This document shows positions 1-12,403 of a DNA stretch of 34,609 nucleotides, piece after piece (position 1 is the first letter of the stretch; each line of letters begins with the position of its first letter). The stretch is from Balneolaceae bacterium (GTDB taxonomy: Bacteria; Bacteroidota; Rhodothermia; Balneolales; Balneolaceae). A program made the position numbers and the translations under genes. The stretch is from the NCBI GenBank assembly GCA_007693395.1, contig REDS01000186.1, positions 1 to 34,609 of the forward strand, given 5' to 3'. The notes beneath the pieces were generated by a model. The model did no database searches and was not told the DNA's origin. It was given only the letters and a program-made list of their open reading frames with translations.

Positions 1-1395
1 CTGCACTATACAAACTTTAATTTTGTGGGAATACAGTTTACCTCTCCAACAGTTGATGCATCAAATATGACAAATCTTAGAGCGGATATTTATATACCGT
101 CAGATCTATCGAGTGATGCAAAACTGGCAATTGAGATGGTTGACTTTGGAGCTGATGTAACGGGCAGGTTCGCAACCACTATTACACCTGATCAATCAAG
201 GCAATGGATAAGTTTAGATATTCCACTTTCAAGTTTTTCAGGCTTAAGCAGCAGGTCTGCACTTGCTCAAATCATCTTTGTGGATGATAACGGCAACATT
301 CCAAGCTTCTTTGCCGACAATATCTTCTTTTATACAGATGACGGTTCCACACCTCCGCCACCGGGCGCCGAACCGGCTTCACCTGCACCTGCACCGGTAC
401 AACAAGCTGATAACGTAATTTCACTGTTCAGCCAGTCATACAGCGACGTGCCTGTAGACACCTGGAGAACCGAGTGGTCAGTTGCTGACTACGAAGAGAT
501 CACCATACAAGGTGTGCCAACCAAGAAGTACACAAACCTTGATTTTGTGGGAATCGAAACGGTTGCAAATCAATTAGACATCTCAGAAATGACCCATATC
601 CATATGGATGTTTGGTCGCCAGACTTTACTCTGTTCGGTGTGAAACTGGTTGATTTTGGCCCGGACGGTGCATTCAACGGCGGGGATGATACCGAAGACG
701 AAGTAAACCTCACCAATATACCACAAGGGGAGTGGGTACGCCTTGAAATTCCACTTAGCGATTTCCCTGAACTAACAGGCAGAGAAAACATTGCGCAGTT
801 AATTCTTGTTGGCCAGCCAACAGGCGAAACCACGGTATACCTCGATAATGTATTCTTCTACAAAGAAGACGACACCACACCGCCCCCACCCACCGATGAG
901 CCTGCTGAAGCAGCACCGGCACCTGTTCAGGATGCAGGTGATGTTATATCACTCTTCAGCAGGGCATATGATGATGTGCCGGTGGATACCTGGCGCACAG
1001 AATGGTCTTCAGCTGAATATGAAGAAATTACAATTGATGGTATTGCCACCAAGAAATATTCTTCGCTCGATTTTGTTGGCATCGAAACCGTTGAAAATCA
1101 GATCGATATCACAGATATGACACATCTTCACATAGATGTATGGTCGCCCGATTTTGATGTTTTCAGAATTAAGCTGGTTGATTTCGGGCCTGATGGCGCT
1201 TTCAATGGCGGTGATGATACTGAAGACGAAGTGGTTTTCGAAAATCTTGCTCAGGGTGAGTGGGTACGTCTTGAGATTCCGCTGAGTGATTTCGAGCAGC
1301 TCACAACAAGGGAAAATCTGGCACAATTTATACTGTCTGGTTTACCAACCGGTGAATTCACAGTGTATATCGATAATGTGTTCTTTTACAAACAG
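1..1395 (+). repeat. Tandem protein modules, 528-bp period
   Basis: Modules 2 and 3 repeat with a period of 528 bp (176 codons, including a Pro-rich linker). For example, the VDTWRTEW block recurs at about 455 and 983, and the FGPDGAFNGGDDTEDEV block appears in both copies. Module 1 is clearly related but much more diverged. This suggests an old duplication followed by a more recent one. Confidence 0.85.
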
Positions 1396-1398
1396 TAG
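1..1398 (+). CDS. Secreted multi-module carbohydrate-binding-like protein, 3' part
   Basis: The reading frame is open to the left edge, so the gene starts outside the window; the GTG at 25 lies inside a module and is not its start. The visible part holds three beta-sandwich-like modules of about 150 residues: one truncated and diverged (bases 1 to about 345) and two close copies (about 412-867 and 940-1395). Each ends in a DNVFFY-type strand. The modules are joined by Pro/Ala-rich linkers beginning with PPPP, typical of extracellular multidomain proteins. From memory, such modules occur at the C-termini of laminarinases and other secreted glycosidases of marine Bacteroidota. I see no catalytic domain and no type IX sorting tail; a glycosidase domain may lie upstream. 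The next gene encodes a GH16 laminarinase, so a glucan-binding role is likely but inferred. Confidence 0.8.
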   Translation: MHYTNFNFVGIQFTSPTVDASNMTNLRADIYIPSDLSSDAKLAIEMVDFGADVTGRFATTITPDQSRQWISLDIPLSSFSGLSSRSALAQIIFVDDNGNIPSFFADNIFFYTDDGSTPPPPGAEPASPAPAPVQQADNVISLFSQSYSDVPVDTWRTEWSVADYEEITIQGVPTKKYTNLDFVGIETVANQLDISEMTHIHMDVWSPDFTLFGVKLVDFGPDGAFNGGDDTEDEVNLTNIPQGEWVRLEIPLSDFPELTGRENIAQLILVGQPTGETTVYLDNVFFYKEDDTTPPPPTDEPAEAAPAPVQDAGDVISLFSRAYDDVPVDTWRTEWSSAEYEEITIDGIATKKYSSLDFVGIETVENQIDITDMTHLHIDVWSPDFDVFRIKLVDFGPDGAFNGGDDTEDEVVFENLAQGEWVRLEIPLSDFEQLTTRENLAQFILSGLPTGEFTVYIDNVFFYKQ

Positions 1399-1481: not shown

Positions 1482-2321
1482 ATGAAATCAAATAATTTAT
1501 ATAGCACCTTAGCCGTATTATCTGTTTTTCTGATGTACGCAGTAGTAAGTGGTTGCAGTGTTGATGACAACCAAAACCTGCCTGAACGCAATTGGCAACT
1601 GACCTGGAGTGACGATTTTGAAGGCCCTGCAGGGCAATCACCAAATCTCAATAACTGGACGTTTGATATAGGAACAGGGGATAATGGCTGGGGGAACGAA
1701 GAGCTGCAGTACTATACAAACCGCCCTGAAAATGTTTCACTGAATGGAAATGGCCAGCTTGCTATAACCGCTCTAAGGGAATCATTTGGTGGTATGCCGT
1801 TTACATCAGCCAGAATTAAAACGGAAGGACTCTTTGAGCAGGCATACGGAAGGTTTGAAGCAAGTATCAAAAATCCATACGGCCCGGGTATATGGCCTGC
1901 ATTTTGGATGCTTGGTGCCGATTTCAGCACGGTTGGCTGGCCCCAAAGCGGAGAGATAGATATTATGGAGATGCGCGGACAGCAACCTCATATAGCTATA
2001 GGCTCGTTGCACGGACCGGGTTACTCTGCCGGGAATGCTTTGTCATCAAATTACTCAATACCAAACAACCGCTTTGATGATGATTTTTATCTGTATGCAA
2101 TAGAGTGGTTTCCCGACAGAATAGACTTCTTTGTGGATGACTTTCTTTATAACCGCATAAAAAGAAGTGACGTGCCGGGAGAATGGGTATTTGACAAGCC
2201 ATTTTTCATGATTCTGAATGTAGCTGTTGGCGGTACATTTGTGGGTTTTCCAACAGATCAAACACCATTCCCTCAGCAAATGCTGGTTGATTATGTTCGT
2301 GTTTACGAACTCGCTGATTAA
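1482..2321 (+). CDS. GH16 family endo-beta-1,3-glucanase (laminarinase) lipoprotein
   Basis: Endo-hydrolysis of beta-1,3-glucan such as laminarin outside the cytoplasm is the likely role. The 279-residue protein starts with a lipoprotein signal peptide ending VVSGC (lipid Cys25). The following S-V-D-D is acidic, as in surface-export signals of Bacteroidota lipoproteins. The rest is a single GH16 beta-jelly-roll. The active-site strand GEIDIMEM is present: E158 is the expected nucleophile, D160 the helper and E163 the acid/base. The E-x-D-x-x-E spacing fits the beta-bulge group that contains laminarinases. Trp-rich segments such as GIWPAFWML are typical of the cleft. No accessory module is attached, but the preceding gene encodes binding modules. 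It lies 49 bp before the phosphorylase gene, probably in one transcript. Confidence 0.92.
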   Translation: MKSNNLYSTLAVLSVFLMYAVVSGCSVDDNQNLPERNWQLTWSDDFEGPAGQSPNLNNWTFDIGTGDNGWGNEELQYYTNRPENVSLNGNGQLAITALRESFGGMPFTSARIKTEGLFEQAYGRFEASIKNPYGPGIWPAFWMLGADFSTVGWPQSGEIDIMEMRGQQPHIAIGSLHGPGYSAGNALSSNYSIPNNRFDDDFYLYAIEWFPDRIDFFVDDFLYNRIKRSDVPGEWVFDKPFFMILNVAVGGTFVGFPTDQTPFPQQMLVDYVRVYELAD

Positions 2322-2370: not shown

Positions 2371-5300
2371 TTGGGTATAAAAGAGAAGCATATAGGTGGA
2401 GAATTGTGGTTTAAAATCGAAAACCACAATAAAATAAGGCCATTTTTTATCAATGTAGTTAGCGACTCCAACCACTGGATGTTTATTTCAAGTAACGGGG
2501 GGCTTACTGCAGGCCGAAAGAACAACAGTTACTCCCTTTTTCCATACTACACAGATGACAAAATCACCGAAAACGCAGACATTACCGGCAGCAAGACCAT
2601 TCTTCAGGTAGATGTTGATGGTGAAATTCGGGTATGGGAACCTTTTTCTGAAAGGTTTACCGGGAAGTATGAGTTTACAAGAAATATTTACAAGAGTTTC
2701 AATGGCAACAAGATCATGTTTGAAGAGATTAACCATGATCTTGGGCTTACCTACAGATATCAATGGAATTCGAGTAATCTGTATGGGTTTGTGAGAAAAT
2801 CGGAACTTATAAACCACTCAGGCAATGAATGCAATATTTCTCTGCTTGATGGAATCCAAAATATCTTGCCATACGGCGTTGAGCCCGACATGCAAACACA
2901 AACCAGCAATCTTGTGGATGCATACAAAAAGAATGAACTGGTGAAAGAGACCGGTTTGGGAATCTATGCATTGAGTGCAATTATTGTTGATAAAGCCGAA
3001 CCAAGTGAAGCACTGAAAGCAAATGTGGCATGGTCGCTGGGTCTTGAACATGCAACATACCTTGTCTCGTCTCTTCAGGTAGATCATTTCAGAAATAATA
3101 AGCCGGTTGAGCAAGAGGAAGTAGTAAAAGGAGAAAAGGGAGCATATTTTGTTCAGACAAGTTTAAAGCTGCCCTCAGATGGAAGTAAATCCTGGAAAAT
3201 TATTGCCAGTGTAAATCAGAATCATGCGCAAGTCATTGAGCTGAATCAAAAGATAAAAGATGGCGATGAACTTGAAGCAGAAATAGAAGAGGATATTGAA
3301 CGCGGAAGTAAAAAGCTGCGGGAGCTCATTGCCGGAGCGGATGGCCTTCGTGTAACGGGCGACACACTGAAAGATGCCCGCCACTTCTCAAATGTTCTGT
3401 TCAACATTATGCGTGGTGGCACATTCGATTTTAACTACCAAATTGAGAAAAAAGATCTCTCCGGTTATCTGGCAAAAGCCAATAAAGATGTCTTCAAAAG
3501 AAATCGGGAGTTTATTGACAGTTTAGATGAAATCGTTAACAGATATGATCTTCTAAAACTGCTTGATGAGACAGAAGACCCCGACTTAATCAGATTAGTC
3601 AGAGAGTATCTGCCTCTTAAATTCAGCCGAAGGCATGGCGATCCAAGTAGGCCTTGGAACTATTTCACAATAAACACTCAGAGTGAAATTGATGGCTCAA
3701 AAATTCTGGATTATGAAGGCAACTGGCGCGATCTATTCCAAAACTGGGAAGCTCTTGCGCATTCTTATCCCGGTTTTATTGACGGGATGATCTTCAAGTT
3801 CCTGAATACATCCACCTTCGATGGATACAATCCTTACCGGGTTACCAAGGGCGGATTTGACTGGGAGACCATTGAGCCGGATAATCCGTGGTCGTACATC
3901 GGTTATTGGGGTGATCACCAGATTATTTACCTACTGAAACTTCTGGAGTTCTATAACATGCATGAACCGAATGCGCTTAAAGACCTGTTTGCGGATGATC
4001 TTTTTGTTTATGCAAATGTTCCTTATCGAATCAAACCATATGAAGATATTGCAGCCGATCCCAAAAATACCATCAATTTTGATGAAGAGGGTGATCAAAA
4101 AATCCGGGAAAAAGTAGCGGAGAATGGTGCAGATGGTGCTCTCTTAACAAACAAAGAAGGTGCCATCCACAGAGTAAACTTCCTGGAAAAAATTCTTGCC
4201 ACCACACTTGCCAAGGTTTCAAACTTTATACCTGAAGGCGGTATATGGATGAACACACAACGGCCAGAGTGGAACGATGCCAACAATGCATTGGTGGGTA
4301 ACGGTGTGAGTATGGTTACGCTCTGTTATTTGCGAAGGTTTCTGAAATTTTTTGAAGCCCTCGCTGATGAACCCGGTATAGATGAGGTTCTTCTCAGCAA
4401 AGAACTGCTCCAGTTTTTTAATGAGATTAATGAGGTACTTGCCGGCAATAAGGAACTACTCAATGGAAGTATCAGTGATGAAGGCCGCAAGCAGATTACA
4501 GATCTTCTTGGGCAGGCGGGCAGCAAATATCGAATTCACGTTTATGAAAATGGTTTCAGCGGTGAGAAATCTCAACTGAAGCTGATTCAGTTCGCAGAAT
4601 TTGTGAAAAATGCACTCTCTTTTATGGAGCACTCCATTGAGGCCAATATCAGGGAAGATGGCCTTTATCATTCATATAACATAATGAGTATGGAGGAGAA
4701 CGGTATTTCCATCTCTAATCTAAGTGAAATGCTGGAAGGTCAGGTGGCCATCCTCAGTTCAGGCTATCTGAACCCTGCTGAAGCTGTACATGTATTGGAT
4801 GCCCTTCGCAAGAGTGCCTTGTATCGAGAAGATCAGAACAGCTATATACTTTATCCCAACAAAGAACTGCCGGGTTTCCTGGAGAAAAATAATATTCCGA
4901 AGGAGTCTGTTCAAAAATCAGAACTTCTCAGGAAGCTTGCAGAAGAGGGCAACAGGCAGGTTATTATTGAAGACGTTCACGGCGGGTTTCATTTCAATGG
5001 TAATTTCAGAAATGCCGGCGATGTAAAAGAAGCCCTTGAAGAACTGAAGGAAACATCATACAGAAATCTGATTGAGAAAGACGGTGGTACTGTACTGAAA
5101 ATTTTTGAAGAAGTTTTCAATCACAAAGCATTTACAGGCCGTTCAGGTACATTTTTCGCGTTTGAAGGCCTCGGTTCAATTTACTGGCATATGGTTTCCA
5201 AGCTCTATCTTGCTGCGGGAGAGGTTGCCTATGCAGCAGCAAACAGTGGGGCAGATGAAGATATTTGCGGTAGATTACGCAGTCATTTCTACGAAATTGG

Positions 5301-5790
5301 CGAAGGTATTGGCATTCATAAATCACCCGAAGTTCATGGTGCATTTCCAACGGATGCCTATTCACACACACCGGCTCACCGTGGTGCCCAGCAACCGGGT
5401 ATGACGGGTCAGGTTAAAGAAGATATTCTGGCTTCCTTTTTTGAGCTTGGCCTCGCAGTGGATAATGGTGTGTTACGCTTTAATCCCGTTCTGCTGCGTA
5501 AATCAGAACTAAGGGAGAAATCTGCTGATGTTGACTTTATACTCACTGAGATGCAGAAAGAAGAGATCTCTATACCATCGGGCTCGCTATGCTTCACTAT
5601 TTGCCAGGTTCCGGTGCTCTATACTGCCGGTGCGGAGACTAAAACTGAAATTGAGATGAAAAATGGTTCAATCAAAAAATTTGAAGGGCTTCATCTTGAT
5701 CGGCAAAGCAGTGCTGCCATCTTTCAGCGTTCCGGTGAAATTAAAAAGATCGTAGTTACACTGGAAAAAGGTAGTCTAATCGATAAATAA
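2371..5790 (+). CDS. GH149-like beta-1,3-oligoglucan phosphorylase
   Basis: Predicted to cleave beta-1,3-gluco-oligosaccharides with phosphate, giving alpha-glucose 1-phosphate. There is no signal peptide, so it should be cytosolic. The 1139 residues fit the roughly 1100-residue GH149/GH161 phosphorylases, which share the GH94 clan layout: N-terminal beta-sandwich, helical linker, (alpha/alpha)6 barrel and C-terminal strands. Visible motifs are SSNGGLTAGR near residue 41 followed by LFPYYTDDKI, the barrel motif EWNDANNALVG with D636 as candidate general acid, and YSHTPAHRGAQQPGMTG near residue 995. GH149 is preferred over GH161 because of the GH16/GH17 neighbours. The start is TTG: the frame is open back to 2332 with no ATG, and the next ATG (M37) falls just before the conserved N-terminal motif. 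The next gene begins 5 bp after the stop. Confidence 0.85.
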   Translation: MGIKEKHIGGELWFKIENHNKIRPFFINVVSDSNHWMFISSNGGLTAGRKNNSYSLFPYYTDDKITENADITGSKTILQVDVDGEIRVWEPFSERFTGKYEFTRNIYKSFNGNKIMFEEINHDLGLTYRYQWNSSNLYGFVRKSELINHSGNECNISLLDGIQNILPYGVEPDMQTQTSNLVDAYKKNELVKETGLGIYALSAIIVDKAEPSEALKANVAWSLGLEHATYLVSSLQVDHFRNNKPVEQEEVVKGEKGAYFVQTSLKLPSDGSKSWKIIASVNQNHAQVIELNQKIKDGDELEAEIEEDIERGSKKLRELIAGADGLRVTGDTLKDARHFSNVLFNIMRGGTFDFNYQIEKKDLSGYLAKANKDVFKRNREFIDSLDEIVNRYDLLKLLDETEDPDLIRLVREYLPLKFSRRHGDPSRPWNYFTINTQSEIDGSKILDYEGNWRDLFQNWEALAHSYPGFIDGMIFKFLNTSTFDGYNPYRVTKGGFDWETIEPDNPWSYIGYWGDHQIIYLLKLLEFYNMHEPNALKDLFADDLFVYANVPYRIKPYEDIAADPKNTINFDEEGDQKIREKVAENGADGALLTNKEGAIHRVNFLEKILATTLAKVSNFIPEGGIWMNTQRPEWNDANNALVGNGVSMVTLCYLRRFLKFFEALADEPGIDEVLLSKELLQFFNEINEVLAGNKELLNGSISDEGRKQITDLLGQAGSKYRIHVYENGFSGEKSQLKLIQFAEFVKNALSFMEHSIEANIREDGLYHSYNIMSMEENGISISNLSEMLEGQVAILSSGYLNPAEAVHVLDALRKSALYREDQNSYILYPNKELPGFLEKNNIPKESVQKSELLRKLAEEGNRQVIIEDVHGGFHFNGNFRNAGDVKEALEELKETSYRNLIEKDGGTVLKIFEEVFNHKAFTGRSGTFFAFEGLGSIYWHMVSKLYLAAGEVAYAAANSGADEDICGRLRSHFYEIGEGIGIHKSPEVHGAFPTDAYSHTPAHRGAQQPGMTGQVKEDILASFFELGLAVDNGVLRFNPVLLRKSELREKSADVDFILTEMQKEEISIPSGSLCFTICQVPVLYTAGAETKTEIEMKNGSIKKFEGLHLDRQSSAAIFQRSGEIKKIVVTLEKGSLIDK

Positions 5791-5795
5791 CCAAT

Positions 5796-7085
5796 ATGAA
5801 AACAGCAACTTCAATACTGTTAATTACGCTGATGGTTTTCATCATGGCGTCCTGCACAGAACAGAAAACTCACGACTTCTCAATGATTACAATAACCGCC
5901 GAGGAAATACTCGGCAACCCATATTATCAGGCGATTTCTTTTGGAGCTTACCGGGAAACGACAAGAGATATTCAGCCAACAATTCCTCAGATAAAAGAAG
6001 ATTTGATGATTCTGCATGCAATGGGAGTCAGGCTACTTCGAACCTATAATGTGCATTATGACGAAGCTGAAAACCTTCTTAAGTCGATCAAGGAGATCAG
6101 AGAAGATGATCCCGAATTTGAAATGTATGTAATGCTTGGGGTTTGGATTGATGCAAAAAATGCGTGGACTGATGAACCTGTTCGTTTACGTGACGAGGAT
6201 AGCCCACGAAATGCGGAAGAGGTTGCACGCGGTGTTGAACTTGCACAGCAGTTTCCTGATATCGTAAAAATAATTGCGGTTGGAAACGAAGCAATGGTAC
6301 ACTGGGCAGAAGAGTATTGGGTTGAACCTTCCATTATTCTGCATTGGGTAAACCACCTGCAGGATCTTAAGGCAGCCGGTGAATTGCCTGAAACATTGTG
6401 GATTACCTCATCTGATGATTTCTCTTCCTGGGGCGGTGGCGGTGAAGAATATCATAAACCGGAACTGGATGAACTGATCAGGGCTGTGGACTTTATTTCT
6501 ATGCACACCTACCCAATGCATAACACCCACTACAATCCCGAGTTCTGGGGAGTGCCCGAAGAAGAATATCAACTGAATGATATGGAGAAAATCCATTCCG
6601 CAATGGACAGATCATTGGAATTTGCTGTAAATCAATACAATGCAGTTGTTGAGTATATGCACAGTATTGGGGAGGATAAGCCGGTACACATTGGCGAAAC
6701 TGGTTGGGCAACCATTTCAAACGAATATTATGGAACAGACGGTGCAAGAGCTACGGATGAGTACAAATCCGGTATGTATTACAACATGATCCGTGAATGG
6801 TCTGATGCAAATAATATAACTGTATTCTACTTCGAAGCATTTGATGAACCCTGGAAAGATGCTCAAAATCCGCTTGGTTCAGAAAATCATTTTGGGTTGA
6901 TTAATCTGCAGGCTCAGGCAAAATATGCAATCTGGGATCTTGTTGATGAAGGTATTTTTGAAGGATTGACACGAGATGGTAACCCGATTACAAAAACGTT
7001 TGGCGGCGATTTGGATCTGCTCATGGAAACGGTGGAAGTACCTCCTACCGCAGCGGAAATAGCAGCCAGACAAGAAGCCCAATAA
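5796..7085 (+). CDS. GH17 family beta-1,3-glucan-active lipoprotein
   Basis: GH17 enzymes hydrolyse or transglycosylate beta-1,3-glucans on a (beta/alpha)8 barrel. The first 20 residues form a lipoprotein signal ending FIMASC (lipid Cys20), so it acts in the periplasm or at the cell surface. The acid/base E165 sits in AVGNEA and the nucleophile E301 in IGETGW; both are intact. A FYFEAFDEPWK block near residue 348 is shared with the cytosolic GH17 at 11471, which marks the two as one subtype. At 429 residues it is longer than that relative, with a Gly-rich loop (WGGGGEE, about 210) and an extended region before the nucleophile, perhaps shaping the substrate cleft. It starts 5 bp after the phosphorylase gene, so translation is probably coupled. 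Confidence 0.9.
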   Translation: MKTATSILLITLMVFIMASCTEQKTHDFSMITITAEEILGNPYYQAISFGAYRETTRDIQPTIPQIKEDLMILHAMGVRLLRTYNVHYDEAENLLKSIKEIREDDPEFEMYVMLGVWIDAKNAWTDEPVRLRDEDSPRNAEEVARGVELAQQFPDIVKIIAVGNEAMVHWAEEYWVEPSIILHWVNHLQDLKAAGELPETLWITSSDDFSSWGGGGEEYHKPELDELIRAVDFISMHTYPMHNTHYNPEFWGVPEEEYQLNDMEKIHSAMDRSLEFAVNQYNAVVEYMHSIGEDKPVHIGETGWATISNEYYGTDGARATDEYKSGMYYNMIREWSDANNITVFYFEAFDEPWKDAQNPLGSENHFGLINLQAQAKYAIWDLVDEGIFEGLTRDGNPITKTFGGDLDLLMETVEVPPTAAEIAARQEAQ

Positions 7086-7166: not shown

Positions 7167-9518
7167 ATGTCACAGACTGAGGCTTTAAAAAAGAAAGTAC
7201 CCTATCGCCATAAAATAGCATTCGGTATGGGTATGTTGGCCAATCAGATGTTCCCGGCCACGTTGGGAATATTTATGGTAGTGCTTGTTCAGAATCTTGG
7301 ATTTCCGGGATGGATGTGGGGTATTGTCTATTTTCTGCCGAGGGTTCTCGATGCCGTTACCGATCCAATTATTGGATTTATATCTGATAATACCCGCTCA
7401 AGATTTGGCCGAAGGAGGCAGTATGTGATTACTGGTGCGGTAATTATGGGTTTTGCATTTACAATCATGTGGCAACTCTACGCTGAGAATACAGTCAATT
7501 ACAATTTTGGCTACTTCTTGTTGTGGTCTTTTGCCTTCTACATAGGCTTAACCATTTTCAGTGTGCCTTATGTGGCAATGGGTTATGAAATGAGTGAAGA
7601 TTTTCATGAGAGAACCGAAATTATGGCCATTGCACAATGGATTGGCCAGTGGGCATGGGTAATTGCACCCTGGTTTTGGGTAATCATGTACGATCCGGCA
7701 TGGTTCCCAAGCGCTGAAGCAGCCACTCGGGAGCTTGCCATCTATGTTGGTGTTACCTTTGCAATTTGTGCTATGATTCCCGGGATATTTATTCCAAGTA
7801 AATCTACTGTAAATGAGGATTATGAACCACTAACACTACAAAACATCAGACGAAGCCTCAAAGAAATCATCAGGGGATTCAAAGAGGCATTGTCATTAAC
7901 CCCTTTCAGAAAACTCTGTATTGCTACATTTTTCATTTTCAATGCCTTTAACACCGTTGCCGGGTTTGTATTCTTTATTGTTGTATGGTATTTGTTTGGT
8001 GGAGACGCGGGAGAAGCAGGTATTTGGATCCCTCTCTTTGGAAGCGCCGGCGCAATCGTGACCACCTTTCTGGTTATCCCGATTGTAGCTCGTATGTCAA
8101 GACTGCTTGGCAAGAAAAGAGCATTCATGATCGCTCAAACGATAGCACTGTTTGGGTATGCAAGTTTGTGGTTCCTTTTTGTTCCCGGAAAGCCGTGGAT
8201 GTTTTTGCTGGCACTGCCTTTTCACTCTTTCGGGATTGGCAGCTTATTTGTTTTGATGATGTCGATGACGGCCGATGTAATTGATATTGACGAACTCAAT
8301 TATGGAAAACGCAGAGAGGGTATATTCGGAGCGATTTACTGGTATATGGTGAAATTTGGTTTTGCGATTGCCGGGGGATTAAGCGGTGTAATTTTAACCG
8401 TTGTTGGTTTTGATGGTAATCTCTCCGTACAACCTGAAGGAGCAATCACAGGATTGAGATTGTTCTTCTCGGCTTTGCCCATGTTTGGAACAATGGTTGC
8501 ACTTTGGGTAATGCGAGACTATGATGTTACTGAAGAAAAAGCAAATGAGATCCGGGAAATCTTAGATGCCAGAAAAGCAGAAAAAGCCGCAGTTACTGTG
8601 CCTTACTCTTACCAAAAAGACCGGTTACTCTCTATTACCTCGGTTGATTCCGAAATGGATGTGATTGCCTCTGAAATTAACAAACTCAGCAATAGTAAGT
8701 TAAAGAAGAGTTTTAGAGAGTCACTGAAGAGTGGTATTCATGGTTTCTGTTTCAGTCCTTACCTGGAAGGCCAAAACCTGGGAGATCAGCTTTCAAGAGA
8801 ACAAATAGAGAAAAGAATGAAAATTGTGGCACCTCACACCAAATGGGTGCGCTCGTTCTCATGTACCGATGGTAATGAATTTATCCCCGAAGTTGCCAAA
8901 GAAATGGGATTAAAAACCATAGTTGGTGCCTGGATTGATAACAATCTTGAAGCCAATAACATTGAAATAGAACATTTAATTAAGGTTGCTAAAGCAGGCC
9001 ATGCAGATATTGTTGCTGTTGGCAACGAATGTTTGCTCAGGAATGAATTGAGTGAGGATAAGATCGTTGCATACATCCAACAGGTAAAAGAGGCGCTGCC
9101 CGGAGTAAAGGTTAGTTATGTAGATACCTATTATCAGCTCTATCAAAGTCCAAAAGTAGTTGGAGCTTGTGATGTTATACTTGCCAATTGTTATCCATTC
9201 TGGGAGGGGTATGATGCCGAACAATCATCCCTCTACTTGGCAAAAATGTACGAGGTGATAAACAATTTTGCTGGTGACAAGAAAGTGATCATCGCAGAAA
9301 CGGGGTGGCCTACCTATGGGAAAAGCGTTGACCGTGCCGAACCTTCCGTTGAAAATATGATGAAATATTTCATCCGATTGAAAAAATGGAGCGAACAGGA
9401 AAAGATTGATGTCTTTTACTTCGCATCATTCGACGAATCCTGGAAAGCCCGCCATGAAGGCGATGTTGGTGCAAGATGGGGCCTTTGGAATAAAAATGAA
9501 CAATTGAAAGTTCACTAA
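7167..9518 (+). CDS. Sugar:cation symporter (GPH/MFS) fused to a C-terminal GH17 domain
   Basis: This 783-residue protein joins an importer to a glucan-active enzyme. Residues of about 15-455 form a 12-helix GPH-type MFS transporter with the family signatures DAVTDPIIGF (from D62) and SRFGRRR, and a later DVIDIDELNYGKRREG block. A charged linker (about 465-505) leads into a complete GH17 domain (about 505-783) with acid/base E621 in AVGNEC and nucleophile E711 in AETGWP. With both MFS ends in the cytoplasm, the GH17 domain should face the cytosol. The frame is continuous and no internal stop, start or sequence break suggests two genes. The GH17 part closely resembles the free enzyme at 10566. 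Likely job: import of beta-1,3-gluco-oligosaccharides and processing as they enter. The substrate and the coupling are inferred. Confidence 0.9.
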   Translation: MSQTEALKKKVPYRHKIAFGMGMLANQMFPATLGIFMVVLVQNLGFPGWMWGIVYFLPRVLDAVTDPIIGFISDNTRSRFGRRRQYVITGAVIMGFAFTIMWQLYAENTVNYNFGYFLLWSFAFYIGLTIFSVPYVAMGYEMSEDFHERTEIMAIAQWIGQWAWVIAPWFWVIMYDPAWFPSAEAATRELAIYVGVTFAICAMIPGIFIPSKSTVNEDYEPLTLQNIRRSLKEIIRGFKEALSLTPFRKLCIATFFIFNAFNTVAGFVFFIVVWYLFGGDAGEAGIWIPLFGSAGAIVTTFLVIPIVARMSRLLGKKRAFMIAQTIALFGYASLWFLFVPGKPWMFLLALPFHSFGIGSLFVLMMSMTADVIDIDELNYGKRREGIFGAIYWYMVKFGFAIAGGLSGVILTVVGFDGNLSVQPEGAITGLRLFFSALPMFGTMVALWVMRDYDVTEEKANEIREILDARKAEKAAVTVPYSYQKDRLLSITSVDSEMDVIASEINKLSNSKLKKSFRESLKSGIHGFCFSPYLEGQNLGDQLSREQIEKRMKIVAPHTKWVRSFSCTDGNEFIPEVAKEMGLKTIVGAWIDNNLEANNIEIEHLIKVAKAGHADIVAVGNECLLRNELSEDKIVAYIQQVKEALPGVKVSYVDTYYQLYQSPKVVGACDVILANCYPFWEGYDAEQSSLYLAKMYEVINNFAGDKKVIIAETGWPTYGKSVDRAEPSVENMMKYFIRLKKWSEQEKIDVFYFASFDESWKARHEGDVGARWGLWNKNEQLKVH

Positions 9519-9801: not shown

Positions 9802-10422
9802 ATGAAAACTAGTAAATACTTGCTCATACTAATGAGCATAATGTTCGCTTTTTACGCTTGTAGTGACGATAGCGTATCAGTGATAGATGTTGACCCAGAC
9901 CCAGACCCAGATCCCGATGAGCAAGAGTTAGATCCTGCATTGGTTGGAACATGGGTTGTAGAGCCCACAGCCGGTTCTTTAGCAGTTGGCCCCTCAGCAG
10001 ATGACCTCTCATGGTGGTCAATCTCTTCTGGTGATGTTACTGCGAGAGAGTGCTTCTACGAAGATCAGTATGTGTTTGGAGATGACGGTTCATTCCAAAA
10101 CGTTCTGGGTGATGAAACCTGGTTAGAAACATGGCAGGAAGGCGTTGAAGAAGATGGTTGCGGAGCTCCTGTGGCACCCCATGATGGTAGCAATGTTGGC
10201 CAATGGTCAGTTTCAGGGTCAACATTAACGATTGATGGCGAGGGCAACTACATTGGGCTCTCTAAAGTACATAATGGCGGCGAAGATGGTAAGCCATCAA
10301 ACAATCTTATAAACTACACATACGAACTATCTGATAATGATGACACCCTTGAAATCAGAATTTCGGGCTGGAATCCTGATGTAGCAGAAGCCACATGGTA
10401 CTACAGGCTTATCAGGCAATAA
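9802..10422 (+). CDS. Trp-rich lipoprotein of the glucan locus, unknown function
   Basis: I do not recognise a specific family. The 206-residue protein has a lipoprotein signal with lipid Cys20 (AFYAC) followed by S-D-D-S, an acidic pattern that in Bacteroidota favours export to the cell surface. A DPDPDPDP spacer (about 31-38) precedes one compact beta-rich domain that begins LVGTW, as in lipocalin-like or small beta-barrel domains of Bacteroidota lipoproteins. Eight Trp residues (for instance SWWS and TWLETW) in a small acidic domain suggest sugar stacking, and C-x-Y/G-C-G segments could form a disulfide. A surface glucan-binding lipoprotein is a plausible guess from the neighbours. It has its own 283-bp upstream region and a strong terminator behind it, so it may be transcribed at a different level. 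Confidence 0.75.
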   Translation: MKTSKYLLILMSIMFAFYACSDDSVSVIDVDPDPDPDPDEQELDPALVGTWVVEPTAGSLAVGPSADDLSWWSISSGDVTARECFYEDQYVFGDDGSFQNVLGDETWLETWQEGVEEDGCGAPVAPHDGSNVGQWSVSGSTLTIDGEGNYIGLSKVHNGGEDGKPSNNLINYTYELSDNDDTLEIRISGWNPDVAEATWYYRLIRQ

Positions 10423-10565: not shown

Positions 10566-11474
10566 ATGTCATTCAGATCAGAAAAATTTTTAGGCTTCAA
10601 GGGTACTAATATACCCGAGCAAATCAATCAGCTTAACAACCTGCCTGAAGAGGAACTGAAAAGCCTTTTTCTTGAAATTTTAAATAATGGTGTTCATGGT
10701 TTTTGTTTTAGCCTGTATGAAGAGGGACAACAACCCGGCGATATTATTTCAGAAGCTCAGATCCGCCGCAGAATGGAAATTTTAGCACCACATACAAAAT
10801 GGATTCGATCATTTTCGTGTATAGAAGGGAACGAATGGATTCCTAAAGTTGCAAAAGATTATGGCCTGAAAACTCTTGTTGGAGCCTGGCTTAGCGATGA
10901 TCAAGAAAAAAACCGTGAAGAAATTGATGCCTTGATAGAACTTGCAGATCAGGGATATGTAGATATTGCTGCCGTTGGGAATGAAGTTTTATATAGAAAT
11001 GATTTAGAGGAGAATGAACTACTCAGTTATATGCATGAGGTAAAAACTCAGCTTGCTGATATACCTGTTGGCTATGTTGATGCATACTACGAATTTGTTC
11101 AGCGCCCGCAATTAGCTGATGCCTGCGATTTGATTTTGTGCAATTGTTATCCATACTGGGAAGGTACACCTTTCAAATATTCGTTCGATCACATGCGCCA
11201 TATGTATCAGCTTGGTATTGATGCAGGTAAAGGCAAGCGTGTATTGATAACTGAAACAGGGTGGCCAAGCAAAGGTGAAGGCCTGGGAGGAGCAAATCCT
11301 TCTCAGATCAACGCGATGAAGTATTTTATCAACACCCATCTTTGGGCGATAGAAAATAATATTGAGACATTCTATTTCTCGTCATTCGATGAAGCCTGGA
11401 AAGTTGGGGCAGAAGGAGAAGTAGGTGCATACTGGGGGATCTGGGACAGTAAAAACAAACTAAAATTTGAATGA
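10566..11474 (+). CDS. Cytosolic GH17 family beta-1,3-glucan-active enzyme, transporter-fusion type
   Basis: A free-standing GH17 barrel of 302 residues with no signal peptide, so cytosolic. The acid/base E140 lies in AVGNEV and the nucleophile E230 in TETGWP. It aligns along its whole length with the GH17 domain of the symporter fusion: shared blocks include HGFCFS, APHTKW-RSFSC, GLKT-VGAW and a FYF-SFDE-WK block. The two are therefore paralogues, probably from a duplication in which one copy joined the transporter, or the reverse. Likely substrates are imported beta-1,3-gluco-oligosaccharides; hydrolysis and transglycosylation are both possible in GH17 and cannot be told apart here. It follows a terminator, so it needs its own promoter or read-through. 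Its stop overlaps the next start by 4 bp (ATGA). Confidence 0.88.
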   Translation: MSFRSEKFLGFKGTNIPEQINQLNNLPEEELKSLFLEILNNGVHGFCFSLYEEGQQPGDIISEAQIRRRMEILAPHTKWIRSFSCIEGNEWIPKVAKDYGLKTLVGAWLSDDQEKNREEIDALIELADQGYVDIAAVGNEVLYRNDLEENELLSYMHEVKTQLADIPVGYVDAYYEFVQRPQLADACDLILCNCYPYWEGTPFKYSFDHMRHMYQLGIDAGKGKRVLITETGWPSKGEGLGGANPSQINAMKYFINTHLWAIENNIETFYFSSFDEAWKVGAEGEVGAYWGIWDSKNKLKFE

Positions 11475-12403
11475 TGGACACCTTTAAATCTTTGGGGATT
11501 TCACCGGGCAAGGGGATTTGTTATTCCGGCTTCAGGGAAGGACAGTTTCCCGGGATTACTTACCCCTCCTACAAACAGGTAAAAGAAGATCTGCTGATTT
11601 TAGAACCGGATTTTAAATACCTGCGAATGTACGATTGCGACCAGCACACACGTACAACACTTGAAGTAATTCGAAAAGAAAAGTTGGATTTTAAGCTGAT
11701 GCTTGGGGCTTTCATTGTAGCAGAGATGAACAATTTTAACTGCCCCTGGGGTGGTGTTCATACCGAAGAAAAGCTTGAAGCTAACCTTGTTTTGAATAGA
11801 GAGAAAATCCAAAAATTAATCGATCTCGCTAATGACTACCCTGAAATTGTATTCTCACTTTCTGTTGGAAATGAAGCCTGTGTAGGCTGGACTGATCATT
11901 ATGTTCACGAAAATAGAGTTCTGGAGTACACAAAACTGGTAAAAGCGGGTGCAAAACAGCCGGTTACATTTTGTGAAAACTATGAGCCCTGGCACTTTAA
12001 GCTGGAGAAACTTGCCCATGAGCTCGATTTTATTTCCATTCATACCTATCCCGTTTGGGAGTACAAACACATTGACGAGGCACTTCAATACACCAAAGAG
12101 AACTACTATTCGGTTGCTAATAAATATCCTAACAAGCCGGTGATTATTACGGAAGCAGGCTGGGCCACCAACTCGAACGGACGGGGTATCAATCCGGAAA
12201 ACGTGAACGAGCTTTATCAAAAAATCTATTTTGAAAAGCTGATGGCCTGGGTAGAGCAGGAAAAAATTCTAACTTTCTTTTTTGAAGCATTTGATGAACC
12301 CTGGAAAGGATCACCCGATCCACTCGAACCGGAAAAACACTGGGGCCTTTACAACGTAGACAGAACTCCCAAACTTGCGATGCGAAAGTATCAAAAAGTT
12401 TGA
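11471..12403 (+). CDS. Cytosolic GH17 family beta-1,3-glucan-active enzyme, lipoprotein type
   Basis: This 310-residue GH17 enzyme has no signal peptide. The acid/base E135 is in SVGNEA and the nucleophile E228 in TEAGWA; the usual ETGW is EAGW here. It shares QVKEDLLIL, LDFISIHTYP and FFFEAFDEPWK blocks with the GH17 lipoprotein at 5796 rather than with its immediate neighbour, so it is the cytosolic counterpart of that subtype. The start overlaps the preceding gene by ATGA; an alternative ATG lies one codon later. Co-expression with the 10566 enzyme is therefore very likely, and the two may attack different chain positions or branch patterns of imported glucan fragments. The stop lies 1 bp from the convergent glycosylase gene, with no terminator between them. 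Confidence 0.88.
   Translation: MMDTFKSLGISPGKGICYSGFREGQFPGITYPSYKQVKEDLLILEPDFKYLRMYDCDQHTRTTLEVIRKEKLDFKLMLGAFIVAEMNNFNCPWGGVHTEEKLEANLVLNREKIQKLIDLANDYPEIVFSLSVGNEACVGWTDHYVHENRVLEYTKLVKAGAKQPVTFCENYEPWHFKLEKLAHELDFISIHTYPVWEYKHIDEALQYTKENYYSVANKYPNKPVIITEAGWATNSNGRGINPENVNELYQKIYFEKLMAWVEQEKILTFFFEAFDEPWKGSPDPLEPEKHWGLYNVDRTPKLAMRKYQKV

Follow-up and report, generated by a model that had tools for sequence, protein, structure and literature searches.

Described MFS-GH17 proteins and their relatives

Laminarin is a major algal storage beta-1,3-glucan which is turned over by marine Bacteroidota. An MFS transporter fused to a GH17 domain was described in 2018 by Unfried et al. for FbGH17B (FORMB_24740, AOR29491.1) of Formosa sp. 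Hel1_33_131, and the protein was assayed as an exo-beta-1,3-glucosidase converting oligosaccharides to glucose, with glucose release reported on debranched laminarin oligosaccharides (PMC6246565). The same authors reported the wide occurrence of the fusion in marine Flavobacteriia, left its topology open, and in their model worded hydrolysis as coupled to product uptake (PMC6246565). The nearest characterized free relative, MlGH17B (WIW39500.1) of Muricauda lutaonensis, is 53% identical to FbGH17B and is a beta-1,3-glucanosyltransglycosylase predicted to be cytoplasmic (PMC11005184); its gene adjoins an MFS gene. The nearest solved GH17 fold is that of the fungal, transporter-free glucanosyltransferase RmBgt17A from Rhizomucor miehei (4wtp, 4wtr, 4wts). 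For this enzyme, PMC11005184 cites the acceptor-site residues Tyr102, Trp157 and Glu158 as each required for transfer, which was abolished by Tyr102Ala. A search of literature accessible without subscription found no accounts of the MFS-GH17 fusion beyond the Formosa and Muricauda papers, and no report of wet-lab topology for the family.

The fused gene in the Balneolaceae locus

The window, the whole stretch of 34,609 nucleotides analyzed here, is from a Balneolaceae bacterium (contig REDS01000186.1). It contains a single gene at 7167-9518 (+ strand) of 783 codons, running from ATG to stop with no internal stops, whose parts are as follows.

7167..8534, + strand: GPH/MelB-type symporter domain, residues 1-456, 12 TM helices (Pfam, hydropathy, MelB alignment, model)
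8535..8723, + strand: joint between the MFS and GH17 domains, residues 457-519
8724..9515, + strand: GH17 domain, lineage GH17a, residues 520-783 (Pfam, phmmer, Foldseek)
9027-9029, + strand: acid/base E621
9036-9038, + strand: L624, replacing the transglycosylase Tyr
9297-9299, + strand: nucleophile E711
9516..9518, + strand: stop codon (frame translation)

An earlier note on this DNA had read the frame as a complete symporter followed by a complete GH17 domain with catalytic residues E621 and E711. This was confirmed by the frame itself, Pfam, phmmer and AlphaFold2. The note had also named a hidden stop near 8560-8680 as a possible artifact and had proposed looking for the same gene order in related genomes. 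The fused gene was found intact in seven further genomes of the same genus as frames of 783-785 amino acids with 90-93% identity to the window, and in another congener (G007) it was split across two contigs. The ratio dN/dS, calculated over 28 pairs by the Nei-Gojobori method, was 0.048 for the MFS part, 0.142 for the joint and 0.065 for GH17, indicating purifying selection on all three. Together, the intact congeneric genes and these low ratios exclude a sequencing error, a hidden stop or a false join. The closest named relatives were Balneolaceae MAGs (92-93% identical), and a plasmid search yielded no hit spanning the greater part of its query.

The AlphaFold2 model of the fused protein (mean pLDDT 83.8, pTM 0.60) consisted of two confident domains, of which the N-terminal half matched MelB and MFSD2A and the C-terminal half matched RmBgt17A. 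The relative orientation of the two domains in the model is uncertain at this pTM. The joint was modeled as a tail helix (456-475), a weak stretch at approximately 476-482 where pLDDT was below 50, and, beyond it, the helices that open the GH17 part at its N-terminus. The model suggests a tether in which no fixed interface is evident. Conservation of the linker, which the earlier note had proposed to compare, held for length, since 104 of the 105 fused loci have 68-79 amino acids between Y452 and about I524, and did not hold for sequence, which was variable. The one longer joint, of 105 residues, was at L025:484-2943 (-) in G034, a fused MFS-GH17 gene in which the joint contains RNMSFREERF, much as free GH17b proteins begin, while its GH17 domain keeps the Tyr.

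The surrounding locus

The fused gene lies within a laminarin-type utilization locus, the upstream end of which is cut by the contig start. Its other members are listed below.

1482..2321, + strand: GH16 lipoprotein with a lipobox-like ...VSGC, a putative laminarinase (Pfam PF00722, 80 bits)
2371..5790, + strand: GH149 1,3-beta-glucan phosphorylase, N-terminal export signal not seen (NF058639, 1719.6 bits)
5796..7085, + strand: GH17A-type lipoprotein (...MASC), a putative endo-laminarinase (PF00332, 26.6 bits, just under the Pfam cut-off)
9802..10422, + strand: small lipoprotein between the fused gene and GH17b (from sequence)
10566..11474, + strand: stand-alone GH17b, no signal peptide, Tyr kept in AVGNEVLYRND (PF00332, 42.5 bits)
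11471..12403, + strand: second stand-alone GH17-like gene (GH17c), no signal peptide, sharing about 31% identity with the fused domain

Encoding a GPH-type MFS and then GH17 within a single frame, in a laminarin-type locus, the window gene belongs to the FbGH17B-type fusions; by its published description FbGH17B likewise has a 12-helix N-terminal MFS and a C-terminal GH17 encoded by one gene of a laminarin locus. The two differ in organism and in that a GH30 lies near the Formosa fusion, whereas none is found between GH17A and the fusion here. MlGH17B, a GH17 of this same group, is more like the product of 10566-11474, a putative free transglycosylase, than like the fused domain. The small lipoprotein gene was also found at this position in G013, while in five other congeneric genomes GH17b follows almost directly after the fusion. 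At the other end of the locus, window positions 25-1398 encode the final part, lacking a start, of a repeated surface-type protein truncated where the contig begins; it had no Pfam or NCBIfam match and may serve the locus as a glycan-binding protein.

The symporter half and the side of the membrane

Pfam MFS_2 (PF13347) matched residues 19-456 at 218 bits, above its cut-off, and the GPH family model TIGR00792 matched over its full length at 174 bits, below its own cut-off of 231. Hydropathy averaged over the alignment gave exactly 12 peaks in the MFS half, and the modeled fold matched MelB (8t60) with Z 36.0 and the inward-open MFSD2A (8d2t) with Z 36.6. Residues D62 and D66, which align with the helix II cation-site residues D55 and D59 of MelB (4m64), were invariant in 61 of 61 fused proteins. 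By established rules, this aligned Asp pair suggests a cation-coupled symporter. Like MelB, the window protein thus has the GPH fold, 12 helices and the cation-site pair; MelB differs in having no enzyme domain and in carrying melibiose, while laminari-oligosaccharides are the substrate suggested here by the gene neighborhood.

The N-terminus, the even loops and the C-terminal tail together have about 33 Lys and Arg, the odd, periplasmic loops about 3. From the positive-inside rule and MelB topology, we predict a cytoplasmic C-terminus and with it a cytoplasmic GH17 domain, such that uptake would precede cutting. The prediction agrees with the placement of the enzyme at the inner face proposed in the earlier note, which had allowed that a helix count might put the C-terminus outside; the 12 helices counted predict no such arrangement. 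Phosphorolysis after entry, also proposed there, is in keeping with the GH149 gene in the cluster having no visible N-terminal export signal.

The GH17 domain and site 624

Pfam Glyco_hydro_17 (PF00332) matched residues 704-781 at 45 bits (cut-off 28.2), covering profile positions 223-301 only, while the phmmer match to RmBgt17A (4wtp, 98 bits) extended over residues 547-768 and so over most of the domain; Foldseek matched 4wtr, of the GH17 TIM-barrel fold, with an E value of 1.9e-10 and a TM score (target) of 0.79. In the phmmer alignment E621 occupies the acid/base position of RmBgt17A and E711 corresponds to the residue changed to Ala in 4wtr and 4wts. Both catalytic Glu were present in all 96 fused and all 120 stand-alone domains compared.

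The acceptor site was compared at the triad Tyr102/136, Trp157/191 and Glu158/192 (RmBgt17A/MlGH17B numbering). In the window protein the triad is incomplete, as W679 and E680 are present, and invariant, while the Tyr is replaced by Leu624. Counting the window once and leaving out the fused, Tyr-bearing L025, site 624 was Leu in 70, Met in 21, Tyr in 3, His in 1 and Gln in 1 of the 96 fused domains, and Tyr in 111 and Leu in 9 of the 120 stand-alone domains. Thus 93 of 96 fused domains, the window included, are without the transglycosylase Tyr which 111 of 120 free domains keep. Leu at this site is an imperfect divider of the two groups given the nine free GH17b which also have it. The key Tyr is likewise replaced in FbGH17B, by Met rather than Leu, and Met is also found in the fused protein L150, which may be FbGH17B itself. 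Sites 657, 762, 763 (the +1-subsite Ser275 in MlGH17B numbering) and 770 also differ between the groups. The active-site pattern fits a hydrolytic fused enzyme beside a transferring free one. Three fused proteins (L021, L119 and L157) keep Tyr at the 624-equivalent site and are candidate tethered transglycosylases; these few members offer a natural comparison of a tethered hydrolase with a tethered transferase.

Distribution and lineages

The earlier note had regarded transporter-glycosidase fusions as rare, and had considered that homologues might always be encoded as two separate genes. Neither holds, as the architecture was published in 2018 (PMC6246565) and 75 loci among the 80 best-scoring named ones carried the fusion, from Cyclobacteriaceae, Flavobacteriaceae, Saprospiraceae and Balneolaceae, a list biased to fused proteins because the query was itself fused; the five not fused were L088, L089, L098, L112 and L121. 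In a sample of 392 genomes from the phylum, not picked by similarity, 52 had a match, approximately 16 of them fused; a match was found in a second such sample, family f29 (probably Flavobacteriaceae), in 97 of 299 genomes, approximately 22 of them fused. The MFS-GH17 fusion is common in Bacteroidota. The usual gene order was GH17A, other genes, the fusion, free GH17b and sometimes GH17c. Open frames of 1025-1045 amino acids were considered as further fusions and rejected, as they were separate genes. Three congeners (G012, G017 and G024) had another MFS, about 45% identical, with a separate GH17, and the fused form is thus patchy within the genus, as expected from gene exchange.

In a GH17 tree of 100 domains the fused domains, with the exception of L025, lay on one side of a branch with SH-aLRT 96, with two fused/free label changes overall; L158, with an MFS part truncated where its contig ends, was for that reason scored as fused. 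Lineage trees were 'quick' or FastTree trees, and the IQ-TREE set held part of the 120 stand-alone domains. Among the 120 stand-alone domains compared, to which this result is confined, none fell inside the fused lineage. From these trees, the fused domains form a lineage of their own (GH17a), distinct from the stand-alone GH17b usually found downstream. L025 was at first taken as an independent fusion on account of its joint, but the AU test was compatible with its belonging with the other fused domains (p 0.53); it is possibly a separate, later fusion, giving one or two fusion origins.

The transporters gave a different picture. In MFS trees the fused/unfused label switched 12-15 times and a single clade of fused MFS domains was rejected (AU p 6e-49), which rules out one fusion of neighboring MFS and GH17b genes as the explanation for all. 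Since the fused GH17 domains can form one clade and the fused MFS domains cannot, GH17a has been lost from, or has moved between, transporters. GH17a is also borne by L135, L136 and L157, whose transporters fall in another MFS clade and share about 39% identity with that of the window.

Proposed function

The architecture itself was already published; added here are the predicted cytoplasmic side, the separate fused lineage and the active-site change. A published fusion with vague placement is thereby turned into testable statements, namely that the enzyme is inside, that it belongs to a dedicated lineage and that one acceptor-site residue, Leu or Met in most fused and Tyr in most free enzymes, separates the two groups. 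We consider it probable that the protein is a cation-coupled importer of short laminarin fragments carrying an exo-type beta-1,3-glucan hydrolase tethered on the cytoplasmic face. The outer GH16 and GH17A lipoproteins would cut laminarin outside the inner membrane, and the oligosaccharides would enter through the symporter. The tethered GH17a would then trim them on the cytoplasmic side, freeing glucose, as judged by analogy with FbGH17B, and the free GH17b, of transglycosylase type, and the GH149 phosphorylase would act on the same cytoplasmic pool. The benefit may be local removal of the imported substrate and not mere fixed co-expression.

A possible, if more doubtful, account of that benefit is that the fusion does no more than set the stoichiometry and membrane location of two operon neighbors, with no kinetic coupling. 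It concerns benefit and not activity, and is compatible with a tethered hydrolase. The occurrence of the same MFS clade with and without a GH17 domain (12-15 label changes) is consistent with it, as is a joint that is variable in sequence, partly of low confidence and with no fixed interface evident. However, the persistence of the fused lineage in several families, together with a near-constant joint length and active-site changes peculiar to it, speaks for a selected role, though not for kinetic coupling. In vectorial import, which we regard as unlikely, sugar would be passed from the symporter to the tethered site and its cleavage would empty the exit and drive uptake; if so, the GH17a lineage, its rebuilt acceptor site and the near-fixed tether length would be adaptations to it.

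The earlier note had proposed a tethered transglycosylase, in which the GH17 domain would build longer or branched oligosaccharides and trap them in the cell. RmBgt17A, the nearest solved relative, is a glucanosyltransferase, the equivalents of its Trp157 and Glu158 are invariant, the free relative MlGH17B transfers (PMC11005184), and Tyr is kept in L021, L119 and L157 and likewise in L025, the atypical fusion. Against this, the window has Leu624 where RmBgt17A and MlGH17B have Tyr, 93 of 96 fused domains are without that Tyr, and FbGH17B yielded glucose (PMC6246565), so that transglycosylation by the window protein is distinctly improbable. A periplasmic GH17 making glucose outside for import by the MFS, as the wording of Unfried et al. 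could mean (PMC6246565), is very improbable given the even helix number, the strong positive-inside signal, the MelB fold of the MFS half and stand-alone GH17b proteins without signal peptides.

Related genes and a further fusion

Another type of transporter-glycosidase fusion, in which a GPH-type MFS runs into a GH3-like domain assigned from sequence, was observed in one 1107-codon frame at L138:2631-5951 (+) in G421 and at L164 in G758, the two proteins being 72% identical between genomes of different genera. Their joint holds 'GIIMENNIDTKVNELMSKMT', resembling the former start of a separate gene, and elsewhere in the order the MFS and GH3-like parts matched separately. A search of the literature accessible without subscription found no paper on this fusion. 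Contig C219 of G000 (L004, L010 and L011), from the same assembly, carried at a contig end a partial second copy of the GH17A gene together with the first 22 MFS codons (91% identical), which may reflect mixed strains, contamination (2.44% reported) or a genuine second locus. Finally, three GPH-type MFS genes (L139, L140 and L141), 60-73% identical to the MFS of the window and with no GH17 fusion, adjoin a long gene resembling the GH149 phosphorylase.
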